From positions 1 to 22,359 of IMG/VR virus record IMGVR_UViG_3300043773_001216: 22,359 nt of DNA, one strand, 5' to 3'. This stretch comes from a virus. The first letter of the stretch is position 1, and every line of letters starts with the position of its first letter. Under the pieces are notes generated by a model. That model did not search any database. It was not told where the DNA came from and was given only the letters and a program-made list of their open reading frames with translations. Both the position numbers and the translations under genes were made by a program. Positions 957-20,104 of this stretch are shown in pieces.

Positions 957-957
957 C

Positions 958-1224: not shown

Positions 1225-1228
1225 CCCC

Positions 1229-1245: not shown

Positions 1246-1290
1246 AAACGCTAGCTCAACGGACTTTGTCCCTTGGGCTGGATGTCTTTT

Positions 1291-1300
1291 TGGAGTGGAG
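1291..1300 (+). promoter_or_regulatory. Ribosome-binding site that decides the exonuclease start
   Basis: Two GGAG copies stand in tandem (1292-1295 and 1297-1300) just before ATG 1302. The first is at ideal spacing of six bases. This favours 1302 over an in-frame TTG at 1266, which has no such signal and would add 12 residues lacking similarity to the family. Confidence 0.65.
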
Positions 1301-1301
1301 A

Positions 1302-1835: not shown

Positions 1836-1842
1836 GAAACAT

Positions 1843-3805: not shown

Positions 3806-3835
3806 ACTCTGAACCCTCAACCCCTAGGAGATCCC

Positions 3836-4246
3836 ATGGAGCCCAGTATCGAGGCACCCCAAGTGCCCACTGAAAAACTCGTCAAGGCGTACATCAAGAT
3901 GCGCGATGCGCGTTCCGCCCTGACCCAAGAGTACGAGGCCAAGGACAAGGCCATCAAGGACCAGATGGAAATCATCGAGCACACGCTGCTCGATGTCTGT
4001 AAGCGTGCTGGTGGCGATAGCATCAAGACCAGCGCAGGCACCATCATCCGTGGTGTCAGGACTTCTTATTGGACTTCCGACTGGGAGTCCATGCACAACT
4101 TCGTTAAGGAGAACCAAGCACTCGATCTACTTGAGAGGCGCGTTGCGCAGAAAGCTATGGGGGAGTTCCTCAAAGCAAATCCAGACAAGATGCCCAAGGG
4201 CATGAATGTCGAAACCAAGTACACGGTTACTGTAAGGAGAGCCTGA
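3836..4246 (+). CDS. Conserved-looking phage protein upstream of the SSB candidate, 136 aa
   Basis: The start is well supported by AGGAG (3826-3830) five bases before ATG. The N-terminal half (about residues 12-55) is a continuous charged helix with heptad-like spacing, likely a coiled coil. It is followed by a compact segment, KTSAGTIIRGVRTSYW, and a basic C terminus ending in VTVRRA. This layout, a long helix followed by a short beta-rich tail, is also seen in Gam-like host-nuclease inhibitors and in other phage recombination accessory proteins, but I cannot see a diagnostic Gam motif and do not assign that name. The stop codon directly abuts the ATG of the next gene, so production is probably coupled to the SSB candidate, and the two may act on the same DNA. 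Confidence 0.65.
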   Translation: MEPSIEAPQVPTEKLVKAYIKMRDARSALTQEYEAKDKAIKDQMEIIEHTLLDVCKRAGGDSIKTSAGTIIRGVRTSYWTSDWESMHNFVKENQALDLLERRVAQKAMGEFLKANPDKMPKGMNVETKYTVTVRRA

Positions 4247-5236
4247 ATGTCTGAAATGACTCTTTTCCAGAACGGCAGTCAACTGCCTGCACACCTGAAG
4301 CGTGGTGAACTCAGCGACCTGACCCGGTCGCTCATGGGCACCAGCAGCAAGCGCATCAGCTTGGAAGGCGGTGTGTTCCGCCTCATCGTCGGCGGGCAAG
4401 AGGTCGCCAAGAACGAGAACCGCTCGATGAACATCGTGGTGGTTCGTGCTGCCAGTGCGAACTCCCGTGGCTTCTACGCGGAGAAGTACGTCAAGGGTAC
4501 GAAGTCGCGCCCTGTGTGCTGGTCCGATGATAGTAAGGTTCCGCACCCCAGTGTGAAGGCACCCCAGGCCAGCAGTTGCGACAAGTGCCCGCAGAACATC
4601 AAGGGTTCTGGGGACCGTCCTGATTCGCGTGCCTGCCGCTTCCAACGCCGTCTGGCTGTGCTTCTGGAGAACGATCTGGAAGGTGACATCTACGCGATGG
4701 TCATCCCCGCTGCGTCGATCTTCAGCCAAGGCGAAGGTCGCAAGATGGGCCTGCAGCAGTACGCTCGTTTCCTGGGCGGTCATGGCATCGAGGTCAATGC
4801 GGTGGTCACCGAGCTTCGGTTCGACACTGAGGCTGAGGGTGTCAAGGTGACGTTCAATGCGGTGCGTCCCCTGGAAGTGGACGAGTACAACTCCATCGTC
4901 GCTCGCAAGGACGAGCCCGCTGCCATCGATGCTGTGACGATGACCGTGGGTGAGATGGACGGTGCACCTGAGGACGGCACGGCTGTGCCTGCGCCTGAGC
5001 CCGCTCCGGCCCCCATGCCGGTGTTCTCTGCCGCGCCCACCCCTGTGGCCCCTGCGCCCGCTCCGAAGCCTGCTCCTGCACCCAAGCCTGCGGCAAGCGG
5101 ATTCAAGGTCACCAAGTCCACCCCGGCCCCTGCGCCGGTCGAAGAGCCCGCTGTGCGTGAAGCCAAGGCACCGGCCCCTGCGGTGCCCGATGTCAGCAAC
5201 ATCCTGTCGCAGTGGGGCGACGACGCTGACGACTGA
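4247..5236 (+). CDS. Candidate single-stranded DNA-binding protein with cysteine motif and acidic tail
   Basis: The 329-residue protein has three parts. Residues 1-215 look like a folded beta-rich domain; it contains four cysteines, C91, C111, C114 and C130 (CDKC at 111-114), that could bind zinc in the way phage T4 gp32 does with His/Cys ligands. Residues 240-315 are a long Pro/Ala-rich linker. The end, SNILSQWGDDADD, is a short acidic tip with an aromatic residue, the hallmark of SSB C-terminal tails that recruit partner proteins. No Walker or nuclease motif is seen. I infer ssDNA coating during replication and recombination, supported by its place between the SNF2 helicase and the primase-helicase. 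AAGGAG (4234-4239) seven bases upstream supports the start. A different DNA-binding role remains possible. Confidence 0.6.
   Translation: MSEMTLFQNGSQLPAHLKRGELSDLTRSLMGTSSKRISLEGGVFRLIVGGQEVAKNENRSMNIVVVRAASANSRGFYAEKYVKGTKSRPVCWSDDSKVPHPSVKAPQASSCDKCPQNIKGSGDRPDSRACRFQRRLAVLLENDLEGDIYAMVIPAASIFSQGEGRKMGLQQYARFLGGHGIEVNAVVTELRFDTEAEGVKVTFNAVRPLEVDEYNSIVARKDEPAAIDAVTMTVGEMDGAPEDGTAVPAPEPAPAPMPVFSAAPTPVAPAPAPKPAPAPKPAASGFKVTKSTPAPAPVEEPAVREAKAPAPAVPDVSNILSQWGDDADD
4987..5185 (+). repeat. Pro/Ala-rich low-complexity coding tract
   Basis: This stretch encodes the linker of the SSB candidate, made of irregular Ala-Pro and Lys-Pro units built from GCCCCTGCG- and CCTGCGCCC-type repeats. It separates the folded domain from the acidic tip and is probably flexible. 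Such GC-rich repeats produce long false open frames on the opposite strand (4780-5280). Confidence 0.6.
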
Positions 5237-5242
5237 TTGAAC

Positions 5243-5327
5243 GGGGCGGCGACAAGCGCGTGAGCGGGGGCTCCTTCCAAAGGTCTCCTACCCCCGCAAT
5301 AGTCCCGGGTTGCGCCGGGACCGCCCC
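5243..5327 (+). ncRNA. Possible three-stem structured RNA leader in the gap before the HTH gene
   Basis: Three perfect stems nest without crossing in this 85-nt interval: P1 GGGGCGG (5243-5249) with CCGCCCC (5321-5327), P2 GCGGGGG (5264-5270) with CCCCCGC (5291-5297), and P3 GTCCCGG (5302-5308) with CCGGGAC (5315-5321). P1 and P3 compete for one base, so P1 is effectively 6 bp if both form. The result would be a three-way junction ending 10 bases before the HTH gene's ATG. No T-run follows, so it is not a standard terminator, and D- and anticodon-arm features of a tRNA are missing. It could be a cis-acting translational control element, an mRNA stabiliser or an operator DNA. It matches no RNA family that I recognise, and high GC content raises the chance of accidental pairing. 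Confidence 0.35.
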
Positions 5328-5337
5328 ACCTACCACC

Positions 5338-5571
5338 ATGCCCTACACCGCAAAAATCATTCGGCTCAACGCCGATGCAGACTCAAGCCTGCTTGGCGTC
5401 CAACTGGGGCGGCTCTGCATACACCGGCAGGTCCCGGTGGCTGACGTTGCCCACGCTTTGGACGTGACCAAGGTGGCGGTCTACCGCTGGTTCTCGGGTA
5501 AGCGAGATGTGTCGAAGCACTTGCGTGAGCGCGTGCTGGCGTACTATCGTTCCACCCTGCCCCCGGCGTGA
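5338..5571 (+). CDS. Small helix-turn-helix DNA-binding protein, 77 aa
   Basis: From ATG 5338 the protein has 77 residues. Residues 20-55 (LGRLCIHRQVPVADVAHALDVTKVAVYRWFSGKR) form an XRE/Cro-type helix-turn-helix: a first helix, then PVADVAHAL, a turn at DVT, and the recognition helix KVAVYRWFSG. The remainder is a short C-terminal helix. Such proteins act as transcription or copy-number regulators; here it stands directly upstream of the primase-helicase and may repress or tune its expression. A longer reading from GTG 5260 would add 26 residues of Pro/Gly-rich sequence running through the structured gap and is unlikely. The ATG has no visible Shine-Dalgarno sequence; it is preceded by a C-rich CCCCACCTACCACC run. 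Confidence 0.7.
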   Translation: MPYTAKIIRLNADADSSLLGVQLGRLCIHRQVPVADVAHALDVTKVAVYRWFSGKRDVSKHLRERVLAYYRSTLPPA

Positions 5572-5589
5572 CCCTCCCCCAGCCAGCTT

Positions 5590-5612
5590 CCCCGGTGCTC
5601 GTCGCACCTGGG
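5590..5612 (+). other. Hairpin before the primase-helicase gene
   Basis: In the 57-nt gap after the HTH gene, GGTGC (5594-5598) pairs with GCACC (5604-5608) over a 5-nt loop, and CCC (5590-5592) with GGG (5610-5612) extends the stem past one mismatch. It ends 16 bases before ATG 5629, which also lacks a Shine-Dalgarno sequence and is preceded by a C-run. There is no T-run. A role in translational control is possible but unproven. Confidence 0.35.
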
Positions 5613-5628
5613 CTACTCCCGTGCCCCC

Positions 5629-8427
5629 ATGGCTTTCACAGACTTCTTCAGAAGCATCCTCCCACAAGGCACGCGTTATGTACTACGGCTAATCCACAAA
5701 CCCACGGACAAGCGTCGCAATGTCTTCTCGTCATCATTCGAGGAGATGGCGGAACAAGCGGAGCAGCTTGTTCATAGTGGACTCGACCTCTACTACGCAA
5801 CAGCAGGGTTTGGAGCGCAGAAAAAAGCGAACGCAGAGAACGCCGTAGCGAAGCGCGAACTGTACATAGACATAGACTGCGGAGAGAAAAAACCATACAA
5901 AGACAAAGCAGAAGGGCTAGGAGCCCTGCGTACATTCTGCACTTCCGTTGGATTGCCAAGACCCACGCTAATCGACTCGGGTAACGGTATCCATGCACAC
6001 TGGATCTTCAACGACAGCGTCGCACTGCATGAATGGCATGCGGTAGCTGAGGCTCTGAAGCACAGGTGTGTCGCTGAGAACTTCAAGGTTGACGGTGCCT
6101 GCACTGCGGACTACGTCCGGGTACTGCGTATTCCGGGCACGGTCAACACCAAGAACGGTGCTACCGTCGCGCTGCTCACGCCGATCAAGCACCATGATTT
6201 CAACACACTGCGCGAGATCATTGGCGTCGAAGTATCCCAAGCGGATATGTTCGCCAAAGCGCGGGCGTTGTCCAAGGGCTCGATAGAGGAGACAAAGAAG
6301 CTCTTCGTTGACCCCAACAAGACCAACAAGTTTCACACCATCTGGATGAAGTCTGTTGGCAGCTTCGGCTGCGAGCAGATCAACAACGCGATCCGCAACC
6401 CTGAGACCCTTGCCGAGCCGCTGTGGCGCGGCGTGCTGTCGATTGCACAGCACTGCGAGGACAGGGACTGGGCCATACACGAGATCTCGAAGAACCACCC
6501 CAACTACAGCCCTGAGGAGACCGAGGCCAAGGCTTCGCTGACCAAGGGACCGTACACCTGTGAGACGTTCAGGGGGTTGGACGAGGGGCCGTTGTGTGAG
6601 AAGTGCCCGCACCTGGGCAAGATCACGTCCCCGATCCAGCTTGGGGCAGAGATCAAAACGACGACCGAACCGGTGGCGGTCAAGGTCGAAGACCGCGAAG
6701 AGACGATCCCGGCCTACCCGGCACCCTTCGTGCGTGGCGCTACTGGCGGTGTGTACATGAAGCAGTACAACCCGCAGGGGGACAAGACCGTGCTGGTCAA
6801 CCCCTACGACATCTATATCTACCGGCGGATGCGCGACAACCATGGTGGTGGCGACACGCTCTGGGTCAGGCACCATCTTCCGCACAACGATGTACGTGAG
6901 TTCACGATACAACAAAGCGAAGTCGCATCCAAGGACAAGTTCCGGGACTGCGTAAACCGTGAGGGGGTCATTGCGTTTGAGGATCGTCAACTGAGTGGCC
7001 TGCAGTTGCTGTTCAGCAAGATGATCGAAGAACTGCAAAAAGCTGAGAAAGCCGACAACATGCGAGTCAAGTTTGGCTGGACCGCTGATAACACTTTCGT
7101 TATCGGTAATCGTGAATACACGCACAACGGCGTCATTCACAGCCCAACGTCCAAGCCCCTAGAGAACTACGTCAACTGGTTCACACCCAAAGGCAATATC
7201 GATGACTGGAAGAGCGTAGTCGATCTGTACAACAAGCCCGAGATGGATATGCACGCGGCGGGTGTGCTGGCTGGTTTCGGAAGTGTGTTCATGCATCTGT
7301 CCCCTGAGAGCGGGGCTGTGCTGAATTACTACTCGAAGAAGTCAGGCACGGGCAAGACCACCATCCTGCGGATTGCGAACTCGATCTTCGGAGACCCTGT
7401 AAACCTGATGAAGGACGCGCAGGACACGAAGCTCACGAAGATACACCGCATGGGCTTGATGAACGGCATCATCGTCACCATCGACGAGATGACCAACGCG
7501 GACCCCATGGAGATCTCTGACCTGCTCTACAACTCTACGCAAGGCCGTGCTAGAGACAGAATGCAGGCGAACACCAACGCGGAGCGTGTGAACAATACCC
7601 GTTGGAAGCAGATCACTATTATGTCGAGCAACACTACCCTCGAAGATAGGCTATCAACGATCAAGTCTGATCCTCAGGGGGAACTTGCACGGTCATTGGA
7701 GATCCGCCTGGACACCCCCCTACCTGACGATGTGCTCGGTGCACAGTTGACGTTCAACAAGATTCTGGACAACTACGGTCTGGCCGGTGACATATTCATG
7801 CGCTATGTCATCCCGCATCTTGATGAAGTGAAGCGGATCTGGGAGAACACCAGAGACAAGATCTACGGTATGGAGCGCTGGACCCAGACCGAACGGTACA
7901 AGCTGAACGCTGTGATCTGCATGGTCTCGGCAGGGTTGGTGACAAACCACCTGGGGCTGACTAGATACGACATCGGTCGCATCGCCAAGAAGCTCGTCAA
8001 CAAGGTGCGCGATCTGCGTGATGAACTGAAGGCTGTCAGCACCACTGCATCCAGCACGGTGTCGTCGTTCATCAACAAGAATATCAGGAACATCCTGATC
8101 GTCAACAGGAAGACTGGACCCAGCGGCTTACCGGAAGCACCTAGGGTGGAACCTCAGGCTGAACTGATCATCAGGTACGAACCTGATACCGATACGTTGT
8201 TCATCAACAAGCGGGAGTTCACCAAGTGGTGCGCCACCAACTACATCAACGCGAAGGAGATAGGTCCGCTGTTCAAGCAAGAAACCGGAGGCACGGTCAA
8301 CGTCACCAAGAAGCGCATGGGCGCTGGCTGGCGTACCGACCTGGGGGCGGTCGATGTGCTGGAATTCCAGAACGCCCGCAGTCTGATGAACCTCGATGAC
8401 CTCGATGGATCGTCGGCTCCCGCATGA
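5629..8427 (+). CDS. Primase-polymerase (AEP-type) fused to AAA+/SF3-like replicative helicase
   Basis: The 932-residue protein joins two enzymes. The N-terminal part (about 1-200) has archaeo-eukaryotic primase motifs: LYIDIDCG (D81, D83), SGNGIHAHW (117-125), and VRVLRIPGTVNTK (163-175). A central cysteine set, C311, C323 and C326 (CEKCPH), resembles the zinc-binding linker common in phage primases, with C248 and C276 possible extra ligands. After a middle domain (about 370-540), the C-terminal ATPase shows Walker A SKKSGTGKTT (569-578), Walker B IVTIDEMTN (615-623), a sensor-like MSSNTT (665-670) and a later Arg-rich segment, similar to DUF927/SF3-like helicases. It would prime and unwind the phage origin. 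The first hundred codons look AT-richer. No Shine-Dalgarno sequence is visible; the upstream frame stops at 5571, so 5629 is the first available start. Confidence 0.85.
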   Translation: MAFTDFFRSILPQGTRYVLRLIHKPTDKRRNVFSSSFEEMAEQAEQLVHSGLDLYYATAGFGAQKKANAENAVAKRELYIDIDCGEKKPYKDKAEGLGALRTFCTSVGLPRPTLIDSGNGIHAHWIFNDSVALHEWHAVAEALKHRCVAENFKVDGACTADYVRVLRIPGTVNTKNGATVALLTPIKHHDFNTLREIIGVEVSQADMFAKARALSKGSIEETKKLFVDPNKTNKFHTIWMKSVGSFGCEQINNAIRNPETLAEPLWRGVLSIAQHCEDRDWAIHEISKNHPNYSPEETEAKASLTKGPYTCETFRGLDEGPLCEKCPHLGKITSPIQLGAEIKTTTEPVAVKVEDREETIPAYPAPFVRGATGGVYMKQYNPQGDKTVLVNPYDIYIYRRMRDNHGGGDTLWVRHHLPHNDVREFTIQQSEVASKDKFRDCVNREGVIAFEDRQLSGLQLLFSKMIEELQKAEKADNMRVKFGWTADNTFVIGNREYTHNGVIHSPTSKPLENYVNWFTPKGNIDDWKSVVDLYNKPEMDMHAAGVLAGFGSVFMHLSPESGAVLNYYSKKSGTGKTTILRIANSIFGDPVNLMKDAQDTKLTKIHRMGLMNGIIVTIDEMTNADPMEISDLLYNSTQGRARDRMQANTNAERVNNTRWKQITIMSSNTTLEDRLSTIKSDPQGELARSLEIRLDTPLPDDVLGAQLTFNKILDNYGLAGDIFMRYVIPHLDEVKRIWENTRDKIYGMERWTQTERYKLNAVICMVSAGLVTNHLGLTRYDIGRIAKKLVNKVRDLRDELKAVSTTASSTVSSFINKNIRNILIVNRKTGPSGLPEAPRVEPQAELIIRYEPDTDTLFINKREFTKWCATNYINAKEIGPLFKQETGGTVNVTKKRMGAGWRTDLGAVDVLEFQNARSLMNLDDLDGSSAPA

Positions 8428-8678: not shown

Positions 8679-8715
8679 GCCCCCGGGTGAGTTCGCTCCC
8701 CGGGGGCAATTTTTT
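8679..8715 (+). terminator. Strong intrinsic terminator of the rightward operon, UUCG loop
   Basis: GCCCCCGGG (8679-8687) pairs with CCCGGGGGC (8699-8707), extended inward past a bulged T by GAG/CTC around a TTCG tetraloop (8692-8695), and followed by AA and TTTTTT (8710-8715). This is a textbook intrinsic terminator for the + strand. The T-run overlaps the TAA stop codon (8714-8716) of the convergent giant gene. On the - strand the hairpin is not followed by a T-run, so it should stop leftward transcription poorly on its own. Confidence 0.88.
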
Positions 8716-11700
8716 ACATCCCCTGCTGGATCTTCCGGGCCTGGGTACGCAGCATCCCTACCTGCTGCGCAATCTCGTTCTGTTGGGCACGTAGCTGGTT
8801 GATCAGCATGCGTCGTTCTCCCTCATCGATCTCCGTAGTACGGTCAACCAAAGCAGCTTCGTTGTTGAGTTCCTTGATTGTCTTCATCAAGGACGACACT
8901 GCAGGGCGGATGGAGAACAAGCCTACGTTCTTACGCAGATACTCGTCAGCGTTCTCAGGTTCGCGCTCCAACATACGATTGTACGTTGAATTGACGCGGT
9001 TGACATCCTTTTCCAGATCATAGACCTCGTCGAGGTACCTCGTACCAACAGCGTCTTTCATCACAGCCGACGCACCTGTGAGTTGGGCAGCGAGCATTTG
9101 GTGCAGGGGGCGGTCAGTTCGCGTGGGGTTGATGAACGCGTCTGTCATAGCCAGCGCTACACCTGCGGTCGTGCCCAGAATTCCCCGAATGGCGTTCTCG
9201 ATCTTGATTGGAGAAACGCGAAACAGTTCTACACCAGTTGTCTGGTACAGATCTTCGAGCTTCTTGGCCGCTTCTTTCGCGGTGTCGGATGTGCCGGTGC
9301 CGAAGCGCTGGAAGGGGTCCAGTGCAAGCTGGCCCTGCGACTCAAGCGGGCGACCGAGGAACCACGAGTAGTTCGTGATGTTCTCGACGAACGGACGAAG
9401 CAACTGCGGCGTGACGTTGGGGGACGAAAACACGTCCACCCCACGCTTCAGCAAATTACCCACGACCTCGATAGCTGCTTTCTCTTCATCCGTCCCTTGC
9501 AGTTTGTAGTAGCGAACTACACGCTCAGGGATAGCTTTGAAGAAGAACGCGAGTTCGGCAGGAATGGGGATCGCTGGAGTAAAGCCAAGATCCTTACCGT
9601 AAGGGAGGATCCAGTTCGTGTCCCGCACATGGTCGGGCAGTGCGTTGTACTCGTCATCATCAGACATCATCAGGGCGTAAGCAAGCCCCATAGCTGTCAT
9701 CACGCCCATACGCTTGTAGAACATCGCTCTAGCTTGTCCTACCGATTGTCCAACAGCTTTGCCCGCAGCGGCCACCGCCAGCTTGTCCATACCTCGGGCG
9801 TATGCGTTGAAGAACGGCACGATGGCAATCATCGTGTTCATGAAGTTAGCTGAGCCCCGCCTGGAGAAGTTGATGATCTCTCGGGCACGAGACTCTGCCG
9901 CTGCAGCATCTCCAGTTTCTTTCAGCACCTGCTCATAGATAGCTTGGCGCACAGAAACGTCGGAAGCCTTGGCACCGGCTTCCATGAATCGCATGATGGT
10001 TTTGCCAACAGACTTACCCTCTGCACCAGCCTCTTCCAAGATGTCCCGAAGGTTCCCACCTTTGGTGAAATCGAACGTGCCGAAGATACCGAGCTTCGCC
10101 ATCTCCCGGACAGTGGCATTCTGTTTCTTACCGAACGCTTCGCGGTACCAGTTCGCAGGGAAACTGGTAAGAATACGAGCCGTCAGTTGCATGGGGTTCT
10201 TCACCCCGGAATAGGCATAGGCCCGTGCGATGTCGTCAAAGATCTGCTTGACTGCGAACGGTGGCATCGAGGTGACACCAGCACGCAGGATATTGGAAGC
10301 AGTCTGCATCTTTTTGAAGACAGACGACAGTTCCGGCGGCTGGAAAGTGAACGCGATTACATGTGCCGGATCAGGGACGTAGTACTCGACCTTCTCCCCT
10401 TTGTCGTACACCTTGACGTTTGCACCGGTAGCGCCGACTTCGTTGTTGGCCCCCTTCTTGGCGAGCTTCAGCAGTTCCATGTCCTTCAACGCGGACAGGG
10501 AAGCATTGTTGAGCATGGCTTCGCGGGTTGACCAGTCCATGAACCCTGCGAAGTTCTCAATGACGGACAGCGATTCTCGGCTGCTACCTTCCAGATTCCG
10601 AATGTTCTTCAGTGCAGCAATACCACGGTTGCCGCCCCTAGCAGTGTCGAACCCTGCTTCGTATTCAACAATCCGCTTGAACGGGATGTAGCCGATGTTG
10701 TCCTTGTACTCCTGGGCTTTCTCAGGCGACAGACGGTTGGTTTCGACCAGCACATCCAGATTGTTGAAGCGGATTGCATCCAGGGTCTGGGAGATCTCTT
10801 GGATGTCCTTGTTTCTCTGGAACTCCGCTTCAAGCGCATCCAGCTTGGCGTCATCCTTGATGAGCAACTCAATGGTCTGATCTTCACGTAGCTGATCAGC
10901 TTCCTTGGTTTTGCCCGCTGCTTCCAGTGCCAGTGCCTGCTTTTCAACCTCACGGTTGTGCTCACGGAGGTAGTACTCACGGTGCCCATAGAGCACGGTG
11001 TCCACCTGGGTGCGGTACTTCTCGTAGGTCGTTCCAGCTTTCTCAGCTTCCTTCGCCAGACGCTCGATGACATCTTTCTGGTAGCTGATGGTTTTGCCAG
11101 CGATGAACGGGAACTCCTTCGAGTCCTCAGGCACCGTCAGTTCAGCAGCTTGGACAAGCCCGTCCTTGATCTTCAAGCCCCCGGTACGCATGGCTTCGAG
11201 GCTGACACGCCCATGGTCGAGTGCCCGGGAGATCAGCACCATGGGGTTCAGGTTGCCCGTAGCGTCGCGCACCTTCCCTGCGTAAGCCTTGGTGAAGATG
11301 TCATCCAGCCCTGCAAGGTAGTCCGTCGCTTTGATCCGTGCAGCCAGCGCAGGGTTGCGCCTGAGGAGATCCGCAAGGCTCTTCTTGGACTCCTTACCGA
11401 TGGCGTTGACACCCGCCGTTGCAGCTTCGGTCTGGGGAGTGACGGTGCGGAACCTTGCCACTCCAACTCCGCCAGAACCAATCCCTGCCTGGATAGCCTC
11501 ACGAATGAAGGCTTGCAGTGGGTCGAGGCCCATCGTGCGGATCGCACGAGCAAGGTTTGGCATACCGATCCGCTCGGCCAACCGGGCGAAGAAGTTCCCA
11601 AGCTGCCGCAGCATGGAGCCAGTGAGCTTGGTCTGCTCTGCTATTTCAGCGAGCGCTTCTTCCACTGCCAGGACTTGAGCTTCTTCCCGGCTCATCCCCT

Positions 11701-14700
11701 TAGTGTCTTTCTTCCCGGTTTCCGAAGTGAGGTAGTCGTCCGCCGCCTGACGCATCGCTGCGCTCTGGTTGTAGAACTTCGTCATCAATGCCCGGTACTC
11801 AGCGGGCGACAACAGATTGGCTAGACCCTTGTGAAAGACTTCATGGAAGATAGTCTTCTGACCTTCAATGCCCTCTTTGATACCGCTACGGAAAAGATAG
11901 ACCTTGCCTCTGATTACCGCACCAGCACGCGACCCAGCAACCTGCTTATTGTCTATATCGGTGACGTCATCGAGGACGGTGATGTCAAGATTACCACCCA
12001 GCGCTTTTTCAATGTCTGCAACAATTTTGCGGAGTTGGGCATCGGAGATAACGCCTTGGACGAGAGGGGTTTGAGGAATAGTGCGGTAGCGAACGTCTTC
12101 ATCTTCAAGAGACGTTTTTTCCTCCCCTTTGAACCTTCTTGCGCCAGTCTTCCCCTCACGAACGATAGGTTCGGTGGCTTCGTCCTCAGCGCGCTCAGTT
12201 TCCTCTTCCTCTAGTGCAGCTTCCTCTTCCTTCCGTACAAATTTGTAGGCACGGTCAAGTGCCGACTGCATGGACTTGCGGTCTTTCTTTGTACGTACTG
12301 CGATCTCTTCATTTAGCTGCTTGATGACATCGCGGTTGTTACCTTTACTAGGATCGTAGTTAGAAGCTCTAGCGTAGATATCTGCAACCTGCTTGTCAGT
12401 CAGCCCAGAAAAATCAAGCGTACCTGTTTCTGTAAGTGCGGGTTTCAGAAGGTCTGCGACTTTAGCTTTCTTCTTTCCCTTAGGAGCTTCATATAGCACT
12501 CCTCGGGTAGGCTTAAGATCGGTAGCGCCAGTGCCTGCTTCAGACACATTTTTGCCACGAACAATAATGTCAGTCTGACCAGCGTGGAACCGGCTCACTG
12601 CTTCCGCATCGATGCCCATTGCCTGGGCCACGCGGCTCACATTCGCACCCGAGCTACGTTCCATTCCTGCCAGTTCGGCGGCTTCCTCGCGGGAGTACGT
12701 GGTGGGCAGGTAGTTGCCTTCGGCATCCACACCAATGTAAGCAAGCACAGCTTGGTACATGCCCGGTTCCGCACGGGCCTTGAGAAGGTTCTCCTTCACT
12801 GCATCAAGGTCGATGACAGGCCGTTCCCCGCGTGCACCCAGAACGCCAGATGCACCCATCTTCTCCAGACGATCAACGAGATCACCTTTCTCAGAAGTTA
12901 GAAGCGTATCAAGTTGCGCCTTGAGTTCGTCGTATTTGGCGCGGTTTTTTGACTTCGGTGCAGGTGCCCTACCATTCTTCTGCTTCAGTGCGTCTATCTG
13001 TGCTTTGAGATCAGCTACACGACGTTCAAACGCCAAACCCATAGCAGTCTGCGGAGCTTCTTCCCCACGCAGTTCTGCACGGTACACCTCGGCCTGTTCT
13101 TCTGTGAACAAGCCAGCTTCCACCGCCCGGTCGATATCCTCTTCGGTGTACTCAACACCAGTGGTAGCACGCTCTGTTGCCTTGGGAGCAGCAGGCTTAG
13201 GCGCAGGGGCTTCGCTCGGGGGCGTTACTGCAGGGGGTTGCTGTCCTTCTCCTGCAGGAGGCTGTCCAACATCCTCGACAGGAGGAACCACTCGTACTGG
13301 CTCAGTGGCTCCAGTTCCTTGGGCGGGGCTGACGGCAGCGGGTCCGCCAGCCACTGGAACGCCTGCTCCACTTGGCTCTGGCTCAGTTGGAACATTGGAC
13401 GCACTTGGGGTCTCCGTAGTGATGGGTTCCGCTACAGTGATAGTTTCGGCCACAGGGGCGGCTTCCTCTACCGTAGGTGTAGTCGCTTCCGTGGCGGTCA
13501 GAGGTGCTACAGCAGCGGGAGGCTTGGGTGCTTCTGTAGGTTTCGGCGTTTCCTTGGCTGGCAACGTCTCCAAGAACTGCGCCGCCTTGAGCGCTGCGCC
13601 CTTGAGTTCCGGCCCTTGGTTGCGGGCTTTCTCTACAAAGTTCTCCAGGATACTGCGGACAGTTTCGACGTCTTTCGGATTGCTCAGGTCCTTGTTGACG
13701 AGCTTGTCGTAGAAGGTCTTCCGCTTCCCTTTGCCGGGAGCAAACCCCAACGCCCGAACAGCAGCGTCGTCGAGCACGGTGGAAGGGGCAGCTTCGCCAG
13801 GAGCAGCTTCGCCAGGAGCAGATTCAGGGGGCGGCGGTGCTGTTGTGGGCTGCGCAGGGGCGGTCTTGGCGGCTTTCTCGGCCTCAGCCCTGGCAGCTTC
13901 TTGACGGCGGACATCGATGGGCGCAAGCTCGCCGGTAGAAGGCTCAGCACCCGCACCCCGGGCGCGACGTCCCAAGGCAAGGTCCATCAGCCCCTGTACG
14001 ATGGCACCGGTAGCGCCCCCGTAGGCGGCTTGTTCACCAAGCCCTTCAATCAGAGCCTGCTCAGGCTTGTACACCCCCCGAGCAATCAGGTTCTGCGCAA
14101 GGCCCGAGGCGGCTTCCTGCGCAGCTTCTTCGCCGCCAGCAACGAACGCACGCTTGACCCTGGCCGTTGCGGTGAGCACTTCCCCTTCGGGGATGCGAGA
14201 CAGGATCCTGAACGGCGCGAAGATCTCCAAGGCGCCAGGGATGGTGCCCAGAGCGGTGGCCGTGCCCCGCTGCTCAGCGGTAGCTCCCTCCGTCTCGGCC
14301 CGGGTCCGCGCTTCGCCTGCACCGGCACCAACGCCCAACGCGGTAGCGCCGATACGACCAGCCAGCCCGAGGGGGCCTGCGGCCAGGAACGGTCCTGTGG
14401 AACCTACAGCCTCACCGAGCTTGCGTCCGACTGTCTGCTCATACCCCGGGGCCGGGGCGAAGGGCGCCTTGGCGGCACCAGCTATCCTGGCGATAGCTTC
14501 ACGAGCGGCACTTTCTTGCTCCTCTGGCAGAAGAGCAGAGGCACCAATAGCAGCGCTTTCGACTAGACCGACAGCACCGGGGACCAGCCCCTTGAAGGCT
14601 TCACCAACCTGACCAAAGAACGTAGGTTCCGGGGGCCGTGCACCAGCTTCCGGTTTTAGCGCCAACACCGCACGGATGACTTCCTCCTGGCTTGCTCCAG

Positions 14701-14758
14701 GCGGGCCTTCGACACGGTAGGTTTTGCCGTTCGGTGCGGTGACTTGGTAGGTTGCCAT
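8714..14758 (-). CDS. Giant polyvalent ejection-type protein with zincin metallopeptidase motif and LPD38-like region
   Basis: This 2014-residue protein is the last gene of the virion block, 5 bases after its neighbour. In order I see: a short N-terminal unit MATYQVTAPNGKTYRV; a Gly/Ala-rich hydrophobic stretch (about 115-150) that may touch membranes; Pro/Ala-rich disordered linkers (about 270-330 and 400-530); coiled-coil-like segments (about 577-636, and an acidic helix 830-865); a metallopeptidase-like domain with HEVFH (972-976) and downstream acidic residues (EEALAE, near 1030) that may give the third zinc ligand; helical, charged regions (about 1200-1320); and a C-terminal part (about 1600-1900) resembling large polyvalent protein-associated domain 38 (SRRGSANFMN, IVPFFNAYARG). 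Polyvalent phage proteins are packaged and injected with DNA. Function is inferred from layout; catalysis is unproven. Confidence 0.75.
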   Translation of the reverse strand: MATYQVTAPNGKTYRVEGPPGASQEEVIRAVLALKPEAGARPPEPTFFGQVGEAFKGLVPGAVGLVESAAIGASALLPEEQESAAREAIARIAGAAKAPFAPAPGYEQTVGRKLGEAVGSTGPFLAAGPLGLAGRIGATALGVGAGAGEARTRAETEGATAEQRGTATALGTIPGALEIFAPFRILSRIPEGEVLTATARVKRAFVAGGEEAAQEAASGLAQNLIARGVYKPEQALIEGLGEQAAYGGATGAIVQGLMDLALGRRARGAGAEPSTGELAPIDVRRQEAARAEAEKAAKTAPAQPTTAPPPPESAPGEAAPGEAAPSTVLDDAAVRALGFAPGKGKRKTFYDKLVNKDLSNPKDVETVRSILENFVEKARNQGPELKGAALKAAQFLETLPAKETPKPTEAPKPPAAVAPLTATEATTPTVEEAAPVAETITVAEPITTETPSASNVPTEPEPSGAGVPVAGGPAAVSPAQGTGATEPVRVVPPVEDVGQPPAGEGQQPPAVTPPSEAPAPKPAAPKATERATTGVEYTEEDIDRAVEAGLFTEEQAEVYRAELRGEEAPQTAMGLAFERRVADLKAQIDALKQKNGRAPAPKSKNRAKYDELKAQLDTLLTSEKGDLVDRLEKMGASGVLGARGERPVIDLDAVKENLLKARAEPGMYQAVLAYIGVDAEGNYLPTTYSREEAAELAGMERSSGANVSRVAQAMGIDAEAVSRFHAGQTDIIVRGKNVSEAGTGATDLKPTRGVLYEAPKGKKKAKVADLLKPALTETGTLDFSGLTDKQVADIYARASNYDPSKGNNRDVIKQLNEEIAVRTKKDRKSMQSALDRAYKFVRKEEEAALEEEETERAEDEATEPIVREGKTGARRFKGEEKTSLEDEDVRYRTIPQTPLVQGVISDAQLRKIVADIEKALGGNLDITVLDDVTDIDNKQVAGSRAGAVIRGKVYLFRSGIKEGIEGQKTIFHEVFHKGLANLLSPAEYRALMTKFYNQSAAMRQAADDYLTSETGKKDTKGMSREEAQVLAVEEALAEIAEQTKLTGSMLRQLGNFFARLAERIGMPNLARAIRTMGLDPLQAFIREAIQAGIGSGGVGVARFRTVTPQTEAATAGVNAIGKESKKSLADLLRRNPALAARIKATDYLAGLDDIFTKAYAGKVRDATGNLNPMVLISRALDHGRVSLEAMRTGGLKIKDGLVQAAELTVPEDSKEFPFIAGKTISYQKDVIERLAKEAEKAGTTYEKYRTQVDTVLYGHREYYLREHNREVEKQALALEAAGKTKEADQLREDQTIELLIKDDAKLDALEAEFQRNKDIQEISQTLDAIRFNNLDVLVETNRLSPEKAQEYKDNIGYIPFKRIVEYEAGFDTARGGNRGIAALKNIRNLEGSSRESLSVIENFAGFMDWSTREAMLNNASLSALKDMELLKLAKKGANNEVGATGANVKVYDKGEKVEYYVPDPAHVIAFTFQPPELSSVFKKMQTASNILRAGVTSMPPFAVKQIFDDIARAYAYSGVKNPMQLTARILTSFPANWYREAFGKKQNATVREMAKLGIFGTFDFTKGGNLRDILEEAGAEGKSVGKTIMRFMEAGAKASDVSVRQAIYEQVLKETGDAAAAESRAREIINFSRRGSANFMNTMIAIVPFFNAYARGMDKLAVAAAGKAVGQSVGQARAMFYKRMGVMTAMGLAYALMMSDDDEYNALPDHVRDTNWILPYGKDLGFTPAIPIPAELAFFFKAIPERVVRYYKLQGTDEEKAAIEVVGNLLKRGVDVFSSPNVTPQLLRPFVENITNYSWFLGRPLESQGQLALDPFQRFGTGTSDTAKEAAKKLEDLYQTTGVELFRVSPIKIENAIRGILGTTAGVALAMTDAFINPTRTDRPLHQMLAAQLTGASAVMKDAVGTRYLDEVYDLEKDVNRVNSTYNRMLEREPENADEYLRKNVGLFSIRPAVSSLMKTIKELNNEAALVDRTTEIDEGERRMLINQLRAQQNEIAQQVGMLRTQARKIQQGM
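13788..13817 (-). repeat. Tandem 15-bp repeat inside the giant gene
   Basis: A 15-bp unit (GCAGCTTCGCCAGGA on the + strand) occurs twice in exact tandem, with a third partial copy beginning at 13818. It encodes repeated PGEAA units in a disordered Pro/Ala linker. The unit is a multiple of three, so copy-number change would keep the frame. Confidence 0.85.
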
Positions 14759-14763
14759 GGGTA

Positions 14764-16299
14764 CTACTTGACTTCTTGGACTGTCCAGCCTGAACGCTCA
14801 GCAGGTGCCGTTCCAGCGCCAGACGAGGGAGCCGCGGGCGCAGTTCCCATCAATCTAGCGGTTTCTCTCTCAATCAGATCTGCAACAAATGCCTCTCTGT
14901 CGAACGGTTTACCGTCTTTCTTAGCAGCCTGCTCTGCCCTCAAAATTCTAGCGGGCAACTGCGGGTCTTTAGTAATGTTGTCAGTTGCTTTATCCCGCAT
15001 CTGCGCTTTCTGGGCGTCGGTCATACCTCCTGAAGTTCTTTGGTTTGCAGCGGCTCTAGCCGCTTCCGCCGAAATTCGTCTCGACTCGGTGTCGCTTGAC
15101 TTGAAGCCGAAATCGATGACCTTTTCCCGCAGTGCGATCCTGGCGTTGAGGACCGCCTGATCTGCAGCTTCACGGGCTTGTCTATCCCCGACAGAGTACG
15201 CCAGACGCTGTTGTGCCAAGGCCGTGTTGAGCTTGCGGTTTGCAGCGTCAATCTCGCGGTTGGCCTTCTTGGCTTCTTCCGCTTTGGCTTCCCGAGCGCT
15301 CATGACACCAGCAGCCTTCTCTGCAAGGCTACCCATCCACTTACCCTTTGTGGGGTCGAAGGACGCAAGCTGGAGCATCTCCCGAGTGGTCAGCCCTTCG
15401 GGCTCCTTGTACTCTACAGGCTGCTGGCGCTCCGCTTGTTGCGCGGCGAGCAGTGCTTCACGAAGCTGCAGTTCTTCGGGGGTCACTTTGCCCCTACCTT
15501 CCATGCCAGCGATCCCCGCGTTAGCGGCTTTTGTGTACTCCGCGATGTCAGCCGGGACGGCAGGTGCAGCGGCAGGGGGAGTATCAGCGGGAGGACGAGT
15601 AGCGGGAGAACGAGTAGCTGGAGGACGAGTAGCGGTAGGAGCAGCGGAGGGACGAGCGGCGGCAGGCGTAGGAGCACCACGCAGCGGCGGCGCAGAGCGA
15701 TCAGGATCCAGCCATGGGTTTTCTCGCAACATCCTTGCAGCAGTATCTGGCGCTGCGTCTTTCAAAAAGTCGTAGCGTTCTTTGATTTCCCGACGCTCAC
15801 GTTCTTGTAATGTATTAGCTACACGTAGCGCATCCAACGCGATGGTTTCAGGCGTCGCTCCAAAACCCAGAGTGTCAGCGTACGTACTTCCCTCGAATTG
15901 CGCCATCAAGTCCGCGGGGCCTGCAGACTCAACGTCCTCTGTGGTCAGAGGCTCTTCTTCTGCCTTACCACCGTATTGGAACGCGACAAGTCCGCCCCCG
16001 GCGTAGCCATACGGCTGAGACCCGATCCCTAGAGCCAGAGCTTCTTGGTCGATCTCGTCCTTGAGAGTCGCAGGCTTGCGGGCCATCTGGGCACCTGCCT
16101 GGAGCCCTTGATTCATCATCGCGTTCTTCTTGGCCGTGATCCTTCGAGCCAGATCCGCAAGCATGGCAATCGGCGTCACGCCGGTCTGCTGCATGGACTG
16201 CGTAGCCAAACGCGCAAACTGATCATCCGGCACGCCGGATCCCTGGGCCAGCGCACTGCCAAGCCCACCAGACTGAGACTGCCCAGGATTGAACATCAT
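14764..16299 (-). CDS. Putative internal virion protein, Ala/Gln-rich, 511 aa
   Basis: Not recognised as a named family. Residues 1-80 are Gln/Met/Ala-rich. A Gly motif YAGGGLVAFQYGG stands at 99-111, a signature that recurs in proteins of phage internal-virion regions. Residues about 215-250 are a Pro/Ala/Thr-rich linker with 15-bp DNA repeats, and residues 340-480 are helical and charged, with Ala/Arg/Lys-rich coiled-coil-like spacing. The start is one of two adjacent ATGs overlapping the upstream gene's TAA (TAATG). There are no cysteines. Together with its position between the giant protein and three Gly-rich proteins, I infer a structural or DNA-ejection role in the particle interior. 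Confidence 0.6.
   Translation of the reverse strand: MMFNPGQSQSGGLGSALAQGSGVPDDQFARLATQSMQQTGVTPIAMLADLARRITAKKNAMMNQGLQAGAQMARKPATLKDEIDQEALALGIGSQPYGYAGGGLVAFQYGGKAEEEPLTTEDVESAGPADLMAQFEGSTYADTLGFGATPETIALDALRVANTLQERERREIKERYDFLKDAAPDTAARMLRENPWLDPDRSAPPLRGAPTPAAARPSAAPTATRPPATRSPATRPPADTPPAAAPAVPADIAEYTKAANAGIAGMEGRGKVTPEELQLREALLAAQQAERQQPVEYKEPEGLTTREMLQLASFDPTKGKWMGSLAEKAAGVMSAREAKAEEAKKANREIDAANRKLNTALAQQRLAYSVGDRQAREAADQAVLNARIALREKVIDFGFKSSDTESRRISAEAARAAANQRTSGGMTDAQKAQMRDKATDNITKDPQLPARILRAEQAAKKDGKPFDREAFVADLIERETARLMGTAPAAPSSGAGTAPAERSGWTVQEVK
15590..15634 (-). repeat. Three imperfect 15-bp tandem repeats
   Basis: On the + strand GGAGGACGAGTAGCG, GGAGAACGAGTAGCT and GGAGGACGAGTAGCG follow each other directly. 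They encode RPPAT/RSPAT units of the disordered linker in the 511-residue protein. As multiples of three they can expand or shrink in frame. Confidence 0.85.
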
Positions 16300-17126
16300 T
16301 ACTTCTTCCCAAACATCATGTCGTAGATGCTATTCGCAAACAGCCCGCCTTGGATAGCAGAGCCGAATGACGACGTCCCTGGCTGATAGGGCTGCGCGTC
16401 GATAGGCATGCCGCTGACGATGTTACGCATGAAACCAAGCTGCTTGTACGGCCAGTTCATGGACTCAGACCACTCCTTGTAGCCGAAATCCAGAGGTTCT
16501 TGCGCGATGCCACGCTGGAGCGTACCAGCCTTCATCTGGTCCGCGATGGTCTTCAGGTCCTGACCAGCACCGAACTGCCGCGAGGCTTCGCCCAGACGTT
16601 GACCTTCGAGCCCAAGGGTCGCCTCTCCGAGGCGTTGCTTCTGAGCCTGCTCATACGCAGCCATGAGGCCCTTGGCCTGGATGTCCCCGATCTGGGTCCC
16701 CAGGTTGCGCTGACGCTCAGCCTCCATGATGGCCTGCCTGCTGCCGCCGTAGGCACCGGCCTGGGCAAGGCGAGCCTGCTCGGTGTTGCGGCTGATGTCA
16801 GCGGTCCTACGGGCTTCCCGGGCCTGGATGTCAACGACATTCTGCAGGTACGGGTTCATGTAGTCCTGAACGGACCCGACCGGACCAAGGCCCGTGTTGA
16901 ACTGCCCCGGCTGATACGAGCCGATACCGCCCAGGCTGGTGAATGCCTTCTCCTCCAGCGGGGAGTAGCCCGGTGCACCTTCAGGCGTCTCGTAGGCAAA
17001 CCGCTGGCCGGTGTAGGGCGTGTACTCCTGCTGCGCCAACCCCCACGAACGATTGAGCATGTCCGTGAGGTAGCCCTCAAAGCCGGGGGCAACGGTGCCG
17101 GTTGGGCTCACATTGGTGTTCATCAT
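16299..17126 (-). CDS. Putative internal virion/tail protein, 275 aa
   Basis: The central part is distinctive: DYMNPYLQNVVDIQARE (88-104) followed by AYGGSRQAIMEAERQRN (125-141) and QAKGLMAAYEQAQKQR (150-165). This long helical pattern is, to my memory, widespread in phages next to tail and ejection genes and suggests a helical internal virion or tail-tube component. Residues 30-80 are Tyr/Pro/Gly-rich, and the C terminus ends in a short hydrophobic segment with SIYDMMFGKK. AAAGGAG (17130-17136) precedes two adjacent ATGs; its spacing suits the second one, at 17123, better (274 residues). The start overlaps the upstream stop in an ATGATG arrangement. The specific job is unknown. Confidence 0.65.
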   Translation of the reverse strand: MMNTNVSPTGTVAPGFEGYLTDMLNRSWGLAQQEYTPYTGQRFAYETPEGAPGYSPLEEKAFTSLGGIGSYQPGQFNTGLGPVGSVQDYMNPYLQNVVDIQAREARRTADISRNTEQARLAQAGAYGGSRQAIMEAERQRNLGTQIGDIQAKGLMAAYEQAQKQRLGEATLGLEGQRLGEASRQFGAGQDLKTIADQMKAGTLQRGIAQEPLDFGYKEWSESMNWPYKQLGFMRNIVSGMPIDAQPYQPGTSSFGSAIQGGLFANSIYDMMFGKK

Positions 17127-17818
17127 GCGCTCCTTTGAAGCCGGTTCATCATGGCATAGAGCGTCTTGGCCCCACCTGCTTCATCAACAACTGCTTTCGG
17201 AACGTAGGCTTCGCCGCTGGAAACCCTGGCCGGAGTCGTGTTACCGATTCTGGCATGGACACGGTCATCTCGACCAGACCCATCACCTGGGCCGTGGATC
17301 ATTTTGGCCCCAGGCAGCATTTGCGCGAGGCCCTGCGGCCCGCCTGCACCGTCTACAGCCTTCTTCGTCATGACGAAGCCTCCGTCCTCCATGGGCAGGG
17401 GGCGTTGCGGCGTACCAGTGACCATGCCACCGGCAGCGTATGCCTGCATGAGTCCACCATCAGCGGCAAACGAGGTCTTCGCAACGGGGCCGTACTTGCC
17501 CGGGACGATGTTGCGTGTGACCTTGGACGGGGAGAGGTTCAGGTTGATGCCCCCGCTGTCAGGTCTCGTGTTGCGTGCACCATAGATCATTGCCAGCAGC
17601 GTCGCAATGCCACGCGGCGTCGTCAGCAGGGATGTACCGAGGGTTTTGGCACCGCCAAGGGCAGCGCTGAAGAGACCTGCGAGTCCACTGCTATCTGGAG
17701 TGTAGTTCGCGTATGGATCGCCATAGGTGGGGTCAAAAACATTTTCTTGCGCCCCAATAGTAGGAACATAGCGGTAGCTGTCGTCGTAAAAACCTGCGGG
17801 ATCATAAAACTCGTCCAT
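17123..17818 (-). CDS. Gly-rich virion protein with C-terminal phage motif, 231 aa
   Basis: ATG 17818 is chosen because GGAG (17825-17828) lies six bases before it; an in-frame ATG at 17836 would run farther into the upstream gene and lacks such a site. The N terminus is Tyr/Asp-rich (DEFYDPAGFYDDSYRY). Residues 45-81 are hydrophobic, with Gly and Ala. A Gly segment, DGGLMQAYAAGGMVTG (120-135), echoes the motif in the neighbouring 511-residue protein. The C terminus has HGPGDGSGRDDRVHARIG and ARVSSGEAYVPKAVV, close to the 'GPGTG..D.IPA.LSDGE..V' pattern seen in many phage tail or internal proteins. It probably belongs to the virion; the exact role is unknown. Confidence 0.6.
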   Translation of the reverse strand: MDEFYDPAGFYDDSYRYVPTIGAQENVFDPTYGDPYANYTPDSSGLAGLFSAALGGAKTLGTSLLTTPRGIATLLAMIYGARNTRPDSGGINLNLSPSKVTRNIVPGKYGPVAKTSFAADGGLMQAYAAGGMVTGTPQRPLPMEDGGFVMTKKAVDGAGGPQGLAQMLPGAKMIHGPGDGSGRDDRVHARIGNTTPARVSSGEAYVPKAVVDEAGGAKTLYAMMNRLQRSA

Positions 17819-17819
17819 A

Positions 17820-18704
17820 TCACGCTCCAAACTCATATTCCATCAGGGGGCCATAGCGTCCTGCGGTCATCTGTGAGGACCACTCGGGCTGCTTGGGTTC
17901 TTGCGCTGCCTGTTCTATCGCTGCCAGGACAGAATAGGTGTCTGCGTTGACACCTGCGTCGCCGTAGGTGTTACCCGTGGGAGATGACCCCTGGGACGGC
18001 GCCGAAGACAGACCGAGGGCTGCGCCCAAGCCACCAGACCTTGACCCACCCGTGCCGCCAGACACCGCTTCAGCCACACCTTTGCCGACTGCGGGGCCGA
18101 TACCGGATAGATTAAGCGCCAGTCCACCAAGCGGACTGCCGGTAAGGCTGTTTGCCAGCGATGCAAGACCTCCTTGCACGCCAGCCCCTGCGGCCTTGCC
18201 AAAGTCTCCGCTAAGGATGCCTTCAAACACGGGACCAGGGATGCCTGTCCTTGCTCCAAGCGCTCCTGCAAGCCCCGCAGTAAGGGCCTGCGCAGGCGTC
18301 ATCGTACCGGACATCAGCCCCGCGCCTACCCTGCCGATAGTGGAGATGGTGCCGTAGCCAGGGATTAGACCGGCAAACGCAGGAGCAGCGTAGTTGAGAA
18401 TGTCATGCACATTCCTAGCAGCAAGCGCTTGCTCTACGTTTTGGGTGAAGCCTGGGATGTCCATCTTCCCGAAGCCCGCATCCTGCAACCCCGCCAACGT
18501 GCCGTAGCTGACCCCTGGCGAATGAAAGCCCCTACCTGTTGCAGCGCCCTCGCCAAGAGGCGTGCCCAACATGTCCGCAATTGCTTGCGCTACGTCTTGT
18601 GAGTATGGGCCGGCAGAAAGCCCAGATGCTCCGCTGGGGTCGTTGTAGTCCCCAAAGTTTTCGCCGCTAAGGTCAGAGCCGCCAGGGCCTTGGTCACCTT
18701 CCAT
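17820..18704 (-). CDS. Gly/Ala-rich virion protein, 294 aa
   Basis: Not recognised. GAGG followed by AG stands just before the ATG and supports the start. The first 30 residues are acidic and Gly-rich. Residues about 95-240 are Gly/Ala/Leu-rich, with several hydrophobic stretches (for example YAAPAFAGLIPGYG and ALTAGLAGALGA) that could form membrane-interacting or amphipathic helices. The last part is polar. The composition, together with the neighbours, suits an internal virion protein that helps form a DNA channel in the host envelope, but this is inference. The end overlaps the following gene only if the longer start there (17836) is used. Confidence 0.55.
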   Translation of the reverse strand: MEGDQGPGGSDLSGENFGDYNDPSGASGLSAGPYSQDVAQAIADMLGTPLGEGAATGRGFHSPGVSYGTLAGLQDAGFGKMDIPGFTQNVEQALAARNVHDILNYAAPAFAGLIPGYGTISTIGRVGAGLMSGTMTPAQALTAGLAGALGARTGIPGPVFEGILSGDFGKAAGAGVQGGLASLANSLTGSPLGGLALNLSGIGPAVGKGVAEAVSGGTGGSRSGGLGAALGLSSAPSQGSSPTGNTYGDAGVNADTYSVLAAIEQAAQEPKQPEWSSQMTAGRYGPLMEYEFGA

Positions 18705-18724: not shown

Positions 18725-20104
18725 TTACCGGCTGATCTCTTCCCAGTCCATCGAGGCATGAACCTGATCTCCATTCGACGACGACGTGCATACAAGCGTA
18801 AGCTCGTAGGGCGTGGCGGTGAATGAGTTCCGTTCAAGCTGAAAAGAGAACAAGGCTTCCTTCAAGATGTCAATGGTGTTGGACCCTTGATTTGATCCCT
18901 GGAAGTAGCCTGAAGCCAGGATGCGCCCGCCTGCTGTTGCAGTGCCTGTGATGTTGTAGTCCACAGCCGAACTCGTCCCCGCACTCACCCATGTGCCCCC
19001 AGTAGTCGTACCTGATGCCACCACGCTCCACTGGTAGTTGGTGTTGTTGGTGATGCCCATGATGGACAGCGCGGTCAAGATGACAATGCCATCCAAGCGG
19101 GTAGACTTGAGTCGGATTGAGATGATAGGGTACAAGGTGCCTGCAGTCGTCAGCGTTCTTGGCGTCAAGATATTTGTGCCGACAGCTTGCTGCAACCCTC
19201 GAAGCTCGTAGCCCCCTTCAGAGATCACCGTCGAACAAACCTGCTTCATCGTGCTCGACGAATCAGTGCCCGCCACGTTTTCAATCTCGTAGCGCAGGGG
19301 CAGGGAAGCGGTGGTGATATATGTCGTTGTGATCAGGTTCGCATGATTGAAGTTGTGCGCCGGAACAAACACGCCATTGATGATGAACCCCAAGCGGCAA
19401 GTGCCCAGGCCCAACCACTCAATATCCATGTACAAGATCTGCGCTTTTGACAGATCGAGCGTGATACCTGACGGACCCGTGCCATCAAGCGGATCTTGGT
19501 TCCAGTTTGCCTGTGCAACAAGAGTGTCCGTGGTTACACCGGTTACAAAACTTCTCTCAACAAAATATACATTGCTGCCGTTTTGCTCAAGGTAGAGTCC
19601 GTTTGAAGCCCCAAAATAGCCTACACGTTGGCGCAGGTTAGCTTTTGTTTGAGCCATCACAAACGTGGACATCACCAGCAGGCTCTTTCCAGGCTGGTAG
19701 GAGAAAACTTTCGTCGTCTCGCGGATGATCTTGCTACCGCTTGCCGTATTGATTGTGAGATCCACAAGACCTTGGGCGGCATTGAACGCTACGGTGAAGG
19801 TTCCGGCGGCTGAAGTGTCGTTTACCCAAAGGTTGTTGTCCGAAAAACGGTGCGACGAATCAAACAGCGTCAGCGGGCTGCTGGTGCGCAGACGGCCAAA
19901 CGCATCAACGTTGGTGCCGCCAATTGATACCGGGACAGTTGTTGCAGATCCGTCCACGATGCGCTCCAGAAGATTGTCCAGTTGGTTGAAATAGATCCGC
20001 AGGATGCTCAGCAGCTTATCGAAATACTGCGGATCGTAGGTGCGCGTTGCGACCGGCAGGGCCGGAGCCCTGAACCGCTTGATGATGTTGGCCCAGATTG
20101 TCAT
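18725..20104 (-). CDS. Putative tail fibre or receptor-associated structural protein, 459 aa
   Basis: The N terminus (about 22-50, YDPQYFDKLLSILRIYFNQ) is a helical attachment-like region, followed by DAFGRLRTSSPLTLFDSS (68-85) and HRFSDNNLW, a short pattern that I associate with phage structural proteins of the tail-fibre region. The remainder is beta-rich, Thr/Ser/Gly-rich, with repeated short strands, as expected for a fibre or receptor-binding protein, and has few charged stretches. The start overlaps the end of the upstream tail gene as ATGA (20101-20104). The exact role (fibre, spike or decoration protein) is uncertain. Confidence 0.6.
   Translation of the reverse strand: MTIWANIIKRFRAPALPVATRTYDPQYFDKLLSILRIYFNQLDNLLERIVDGSATTVPVSIGGTNVDAFGRLRTSSPLTLFDSSHRFSDNNLWVNDTSAAGTFTVAFNAAQGLVDLTINTASGSKIIRETTKVFSYQPGKSLLVMSTFVMAQTKANLRQRVGYFGASNGLYLEQNGSNVYFVERSFVTGVTTDTLVAQANWNQDPLDGTGPSGITLDLSKAQILYMDIEWLGLGTCRLGFIINGVFVPAHNFNHANLITTTYITTASLPLRYEIENVAGTDSSSTMKQVCSTVISEGGYELRGLQQAVGTNILTPRTLTTAGTLYPIISIRLKSTRLDGIVILTALSIMGITNNTNYQWSVVASGTTTGGTWVSAGTSSAVDYNITGTATAGGRILASGYFQGSNQGSNTIDILKEALFSFQLERNSFTATPYELTLVCTSSSNGDQVHASMDWEEISR

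Follow-up and report, generated by a model that had tools for sequence, protein, structure and literature searches.

We describe a giant polyvalent protein gene in a stretch of viral DNA of 22,359 nucleotides, hereafter the window, which comprises positions 1 to 22,359 of the IMG/VR virus record IMGVR_UViG_3300043773_001216. Residues 896-1100 of its 2014-residue product form a zincin-type domain, an identity that is well supported by sequence comparison. Among the relatives counted here, the position ahead of a conserved C-terminal module always holds a zincin motif, and the zincin itself is replaced time and again by one of another type. That the protease is kept yet repeatedly swapped suggests that it is a required working part of the protein. 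It is possible, if still doubtful, that these proteins share an obligatory, interchangeable slot for a self-processing zincin with its own bracketing motif, traded among at least five types as the cargo and the ejection module stay in place.

A Zincin-Type Domain in a Giant Polyvalent Protein

The gene and the parts of its product are as follows, in order from the N-terminus.

8714-14758, minus strand: giant polyvalent protein gene, 2014 residues, from open reading frame (ORF) calling, with ATG at 14758
13964-14641, minus strand: Ala/Gly-rich N-terminal region, residues 40-265, with a single hydrophobic stretch from residue 59 (hydropathy)
13769-13963, minus strand: low-complexity linker, residues 266-330 (65% P/E/A/T)
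13124-13573, minus strand: low-complexity linker, residues 396-545 (65% P/E/A/T)
12080-12091, minus strand: N-side flank motif RYRT, residues 890-893, proposed cut site
11459-12073, minus strand: zincin domain, residues 896-1100 (conservation, AlphaFold core, profile homology to HExxxH zincins, BFVD fold matches)
11831-11845, minus strand: HEVFH, residues 972-976, two proposed zinc ligands and the proposed catalytic Glu (HE, F and H unchanged across 14 homologues)
11657-11659, minus strand: Glu1034, proposed third zinc ligand (invariant in 14 homologues, in a later helix of the predicted model)
11444-11455, minus strand: C-side flank motif RFRT, residues 1102-1105, proposed cut site
8717-11446, minus strand: conserved C-terminal module, residues 1105-2014 (97% identical in the relatives L008 and L009; 51-row alignment; helical model)
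9131-9658, minus strand: LPD38, residues 1701-1876 (Pfam PF18857, E=1.4e-32)

Much of this architecture had been anticipated by a sequence-only reading of the same DNA, which named the 2014-residue ORF without giving its strand, the HEVFH motif as the signature of a zinc metallopeptidase, disordered linkers, and an LPD38-like end. Each of these is borne out: the ORF exists on the minus strand, HEVFH is the sole HExxH in the protein and is conserved together with Glu1034, the linkers correspond to the two low-complexity stretches, and the end is a confident LPD38. An independent IMG/VR contig (L002) carries a full-length copy of the protein at 91.7% identity, and the ORF is therefore no assembly artefact. 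Its length, multidomain build, LPD38 and zincin are traits of phage-type polyvalent proteins, as is the placing of its gene among virion genes. PHROG_9854, of unknown function, spans residues 1306-1999, and a Pfam search of the protein found no known domain within residues 1-890. The C-terminal module is predicted to be mostly helical, with a mean predicted local distance difference test score (pLDDT) of 71, and a comparison of this model with the PDB returned no match.

The HExxH motif occurs by chance in 0.5% of composition-preserving shuffles of the 2014-residue protein. Across 14 homologues, down to 24% identity, the invariant residues are H972, E973, F975, H976, K977, G978, L979, E1034 and E1041. 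The AlphaFold model made from the alignment of these homologues has a confident core, with blocks mostly at 80-94 pLDDT, and its predicted order is a helix, three strands, the HExxH helix and a later helix bearing E1034 (helix 153-170 of the slice), a placement that suits the proposed zinc ligands. A helix, a three-stranded sheet and two active-site helices is also the order given for polyvalent-protein zincins by Iyer et al. 2017 (PMC5512222). A Foldseek search of BFVD with the zincin model matched predicted polyvalent proteins of phages (best E=4.6e-6), and the protein of the Escherichia podovirus PTXU04 appears weakly in the same list (rank 12, E=0.043).

Profile comparison ties the domain to a known form of zincin. 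The window zincin matches a 13-sequence HExxxH alignment at E=7.5e-18, with the HExxH and HExxxH motifs pairing across one gap and the Glu residues farther downstream in register. Moreover, the PTXU04 zincin (HEIIVH), which lies outside the window profile, is found by it at E=3e-10, and the joint window/HExxxH alignment retains as invariant H, E, H, a Gly two positions beyond the second His, and E..A...E. Judged from these alignments, the window zincin would seem to be a variant that stands one residue apart from the HExxxH zincins. An analogy, and only that, is offered by dipeptidyl peptidase III (M49, HELLGH), an unrelated cellular exopeptidase in which one residue between the two His can likewise be removed: its engineered HExxH form has similar metal coordination and keeps its activity (PMC3268031), and the spacing to the third Glu is 52, as against 57 here. 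We infer that H972, H976 and E1034 would bind zinc and that E973 would serve in catalysis. Searched with whole proteins and with isolated slot slices, Pfam and NCBIfam yielded no named peptidase family above the cut-off in the slices covered; sub-threshold matches to M85, SprT-like and M10 families, based largely on the HExxH stretch, were dropped.

Constancy and Exchange of the Protease Slot

To survey relatives, we scanned IMG/VR with the C-terminal alignment, which yielded 71 loci (labeled here by L-numbers), and counted slots in the 51 non-redundant proteins with enough sequence, the window included. An HE(x)2-3H motif lies upstream of the C-terminal module in 51/51 proteins (1.08 expected from shuffles), and in 48 of the 51 it falls within 110-310 residues ahead of the module (0.74 expected). 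Nine relatives were considered as motif-less and this was rejected, as all nine carry HExxxH. Among isolates, seven of eight have the motif, namely CF418P1, PTXU04, phiARM81mr, JC1, Vibrio 1.183.O, D274, and Pag-Yong1. Such constancy, at so narrow a distance, is expected of a built-in function. A GTDB scan with the same C-terminal alignment found no relative, hence no host is named.

At least five domain types occupy the slot, under labels that we assigned by motif and by alignment: the window type; the HExxxH type; a large type with HELIHAxT...ELxAxG; HExGH...EWYADQ; and HExxHxxxxxHG. Motif residues are kept within each type, and a later Glu is present in four of the five. In profile comparisons, clear homology joins the window type only with the HExxxH type, with weak likeness to the remaining types; we also tested whether the window type and the remaining HExxH types form one family, found the kinship weak, and do not claim it. 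Window-type zincins (31-52% identity) also precede C-termini missed by the module profile, in L098, L099, and L104, the last of which features LPD39 and matches below the cut-off to LPD3, SNF2, and helicase domains.

On the C-terminal tree, at least 17 changes of slot type are distributed among 48 labeled rows; the tree is a quick build with several long branches, and the safest changes are those between well-supported near-sisters. Nearly identical C-termini carry different zincin types in window/L008 (97% identity), L014/L018 (90%), L015/L019 (96%), L025/L027 (98%), and L029/L035 (95%). The cleanest cassette replacement is that between the genes of L024 and L029, both of the broad HELIHAxT...ELxAxG type, whose DNA shares 96.9% identity up to residue 700 and 94.8% from residue 932 onward, the interval between them being unalignable. 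Conversely, the window zincin is 80-86% identical to those of L003, L005, and L007, where the preceding 100-residue block is 15-41% and the following 300 residues 23-37% identical. At least 17 type changes and a clean swap between flanks about 95% identical are what would be expected if the protease brings its own sites. The N-terminal cargo varies among relatives too, with an SLT transglycosylase domain in L060 (2220-6461) and a GHKL-type ATPase domain in L044 (3066-7049), whose near twin L039 is 512 residues shorter.

A Motif That Brackets the Zincin

Within the window family, [FY][RS]T stands ahead of the zincin in 14/14 homologues, and [FY][RS] stands behind it in all 14, amid a poorly conserved linker. 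More broadly, the C-side boundary carries [RKQA][FY][RS] in 15 of 17 proteins of the window/HExxxH superfamily and in 0 of 31 proteins of other types (Fisher p=1e-10, uncorrected for kinship). This C-side motif tracks the zincin type in six near-sister pairs: window/L008, L018/L014, L015/L019, L020/L023, L027/L025, and L035/L029. With a basic residue in front of it, the N-side motif, tested across all types, showed no enrichment outside the window family. In L012 the motif occurs twice after the zincin, bordering an extra stretch. Because the motif brackets the zincin and follows zincin type, we propose these as candidate self-cleavage sites.

The extra stretch of L012, some 160 residues long (residues 1206-1371), lies between the zincin and the C-terminal module with an RFR motif on each side. 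L042 and L068 have YHGT...-type sequence in the same interval, which by eye resembles ADP-ribosyltransferase domains.

Genomic Context

The giant gene is the last of a virion-gene operon marked by phrog_1645 and phrog_3287, which also holds a homologue of phrog_4287.

14764-16299, minus strand: 511-residue ORF of unknown function, directly upstream in the operon (in 6 loci a homologue immediately precedes the giant gene)
16299-17126, minus strand: 275-residue homologue of a PHROG DNA ejection protein (phrog_4287, E=1.3e-11)
18725-20104, minus strand: virion structural protein (phrog_1645, E=6e-146)
20101-22083, minus strand: virion structural protein (phrog_3287, E=6e-61)

Homologues of the 275-residue ORF were found in 40 of the 56 loci searched, and in 31 of these the giant gene follows within 2.5 kb. 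A neighboring gene for a smaller ejection protein is a trait shared with podovirus ejection proteins of the T7 gp16 or N4 virion RNA polymerase kind. By analogy with related phage proteins, the 2014-residue protein is probably of the ejection type and packaged in the virion. The operon is convergent with a plus-strand module (273-8427) that encodes a PDDEXK nuclease, a helicase of the SNF2 type, and a DUF927 protein. The tRNA-Thr (cgt) that ARAGORN places at 21330-21425 on the minus strand, within the structural gene 20101-22083, is probably spurious. Short glycine motifs (YAAGGMV, YAGGGLVAF) were spotted by eye in the ORFs at 17123-17836 and 14764-16299.

Comparison with Known Systems

Zincins in phage polyvalent proteins, their HExxxH form, LPD38, and a proposal of autoprocessing or effector function have already been described (Iyer et al. 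2017, PMC5512222). The proteins treated there resemble that of the window in their giant multidomain build, in HExxH with a Glu in a later helix, and in LPD38. They differ in that here the zincin is constant before the C-terminal module, is swapped between near-identical backbones, and is bracketed by a motif in one superfamily; moreover, the HExxH of the window sits within an otherwise HExxxH superfamily. In the main text of that work we found no statement on an obligatory slot before the LPD38 module, on backbone exchange, or on a flank motif, and the interchangeable slot with its paired motif appears not to have been described before.

In PTXU04, a podovirus (PMC6563267), PTXU04_00025 (gp25) shares the C-terminal module (E=4e-32), LPD38, and a homologous zincin. 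It differs from the window protein in its HExxxH motif, in an identity of about 24% in the C-terminal part, and in an N-terminal part without a match. PTXU04_00025 counts as a Fit gene: knocking it down strongly reduces plating, and it is reported as essential (PMC11879866); by analogy, this favors a core over an accessory function. In the Burkholderia podovirus JC1, the DarB-like gp69 is found in purified virions (PMC9144972). It shares LPD38 near its C-terminus and has HEAFHQG aligned with the window motif, differing in its 4515 residues, an extra LPD3, and helicase-like matches below the cut-off. Its C-terminal module was not detected by the module profile, nor its zincin by the A5 or A7 profile, being too diverged. 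The virion RNA polymerase of N4 (gp50), which we liken by description rather than sequence, similarly has a zincin immediately ahead of a further C-terminal domain, within a region required for packaging (PMC5512222); it differs in carrying an RNA polymerase.

Proposed Function and Alternatives

The reading toward which we lean, tentatively, is that of a self-processing polyvalent protein of the ejection type with a mainly cis-acting zincin. Under this proposal, residues 1-890 would be variable cargo, and the C-terminal 910 residues with LPD38 would be a conserved module placing the protein in the ejection apparatus. Residues 896-1100 would form a gluzincin-type metalloprotease with zinc on His972, His976, and Glu1034 and with Glu973 as base, acting mainly in cis on the [FY]-[RS]-[TS] sites at about 890-893 and 1102-1105, such that cargo, protease, and C-terminal module would separate at maturation or after ejection. 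A cis-processing protease with its own sites explains both the constancy and the replacement of the zincin.

Several points weigh against this proposal. No cleavage product has been seen so far, and in N4 the polymerase whose zincin-bearing region is needed for encapsidation is packaged uncut (PMC5512222). The essentiality of PTXU04_00025 is that of the whole gene, not of the zincin alone, and the flank motif may be a mere conserved edge of the cassette. Sequence and fold searches of the PDB with the zincin domain found no match and thus no solved structure. Lastly, Bacillus phage Palmer (L112:3950-8986) has LPD38 and the same C-terminal module with no HE(x)2-3H at all; it is the sole exception met, and its host is Gram-positive.

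The foremost alternative is a host-directed effector that is ejected with the DNA and cleaves host or defense proteins, its cassette swapped as the targets needed differ by host or defense. The sequence-only reading had similarly suggested delivery of a protease acting on host or virion proteins at ejection; its zincin-type domain, LPD38 polyvalent protein, and virion/ejection context stand, and the action of the protease on such proteins is not established. The rapid replacement of zincin types is reminiscent of an arms race, effector-like domains occur elsewhere in polyvalent proteins (InPase in CF418P1), and the published view of PTXU04_00025 is one of defense subversion (PMC11879866). However, all 51 relatives have a zincin, with no replacement by another enzyme class seen; the homologous PTXU04 gene is essential on laboratory hosts (PMC11879866); and a relative within Xuquatrovirus shows high sensitivity to restriction systems (PMC11990801). 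An arms-race effector accounts for replacement but not for constancy, and we consider it rather unlikely. Because the zincin is obligatory yet exchangeable, lies where cargo and C-terminal module join, and has a repeated short motif on either side, cis processing is favored over a host-directed effector, though unproven.

Alternatively, the protease could act in trans and let the ejection channel form by working on further virion or ejection proteins or on proteins of the host envelope. This would suit both the operon shared with an ejection-protein homologue and the N-terminal transglycosylase domain of the L060 relative. It would require unrelated zincin types to recognize the same partners, and the flank motif suggests sites in cis, which makes it improbable. 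Slightly less probable again is a structural or packaging element for which catalysis is not needed. This is the role suggested by N4, where the zincin-bearing region is required for encapsidation of a protein that stays uncut (PMC5512222), and it accounts for constancy but not for replacement by different types; the catalytic residues are the best conserved in each slot type, and different folds or types occupy the slot. A chance occurrence of HEVFH in a domain that is no protease would fit the lack of any Pfam or NCBIfam match and of any hit in the PDB by sequence or by fold, but we dismiss it as very improbable because HExxH and Glu1034 are invariant in the 14 homologues, and it is further contradicted by the profile homology with HExxxH domains, in which both motif and Glu line up, and by the motif's presence in every relative counted.

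The role of phage polyvalent zincins, whether autoprocessing or effector, has been an open proposal since 2017. A protease that is kept but replaced, together with an essential homologous gene in a cultivable E. coli podovirus, makes this role directly testable. Moreover, the natural HExxH/HExxxH pair within one superfamily offers a system in which to study how a zincin active site tolerates a change of register.

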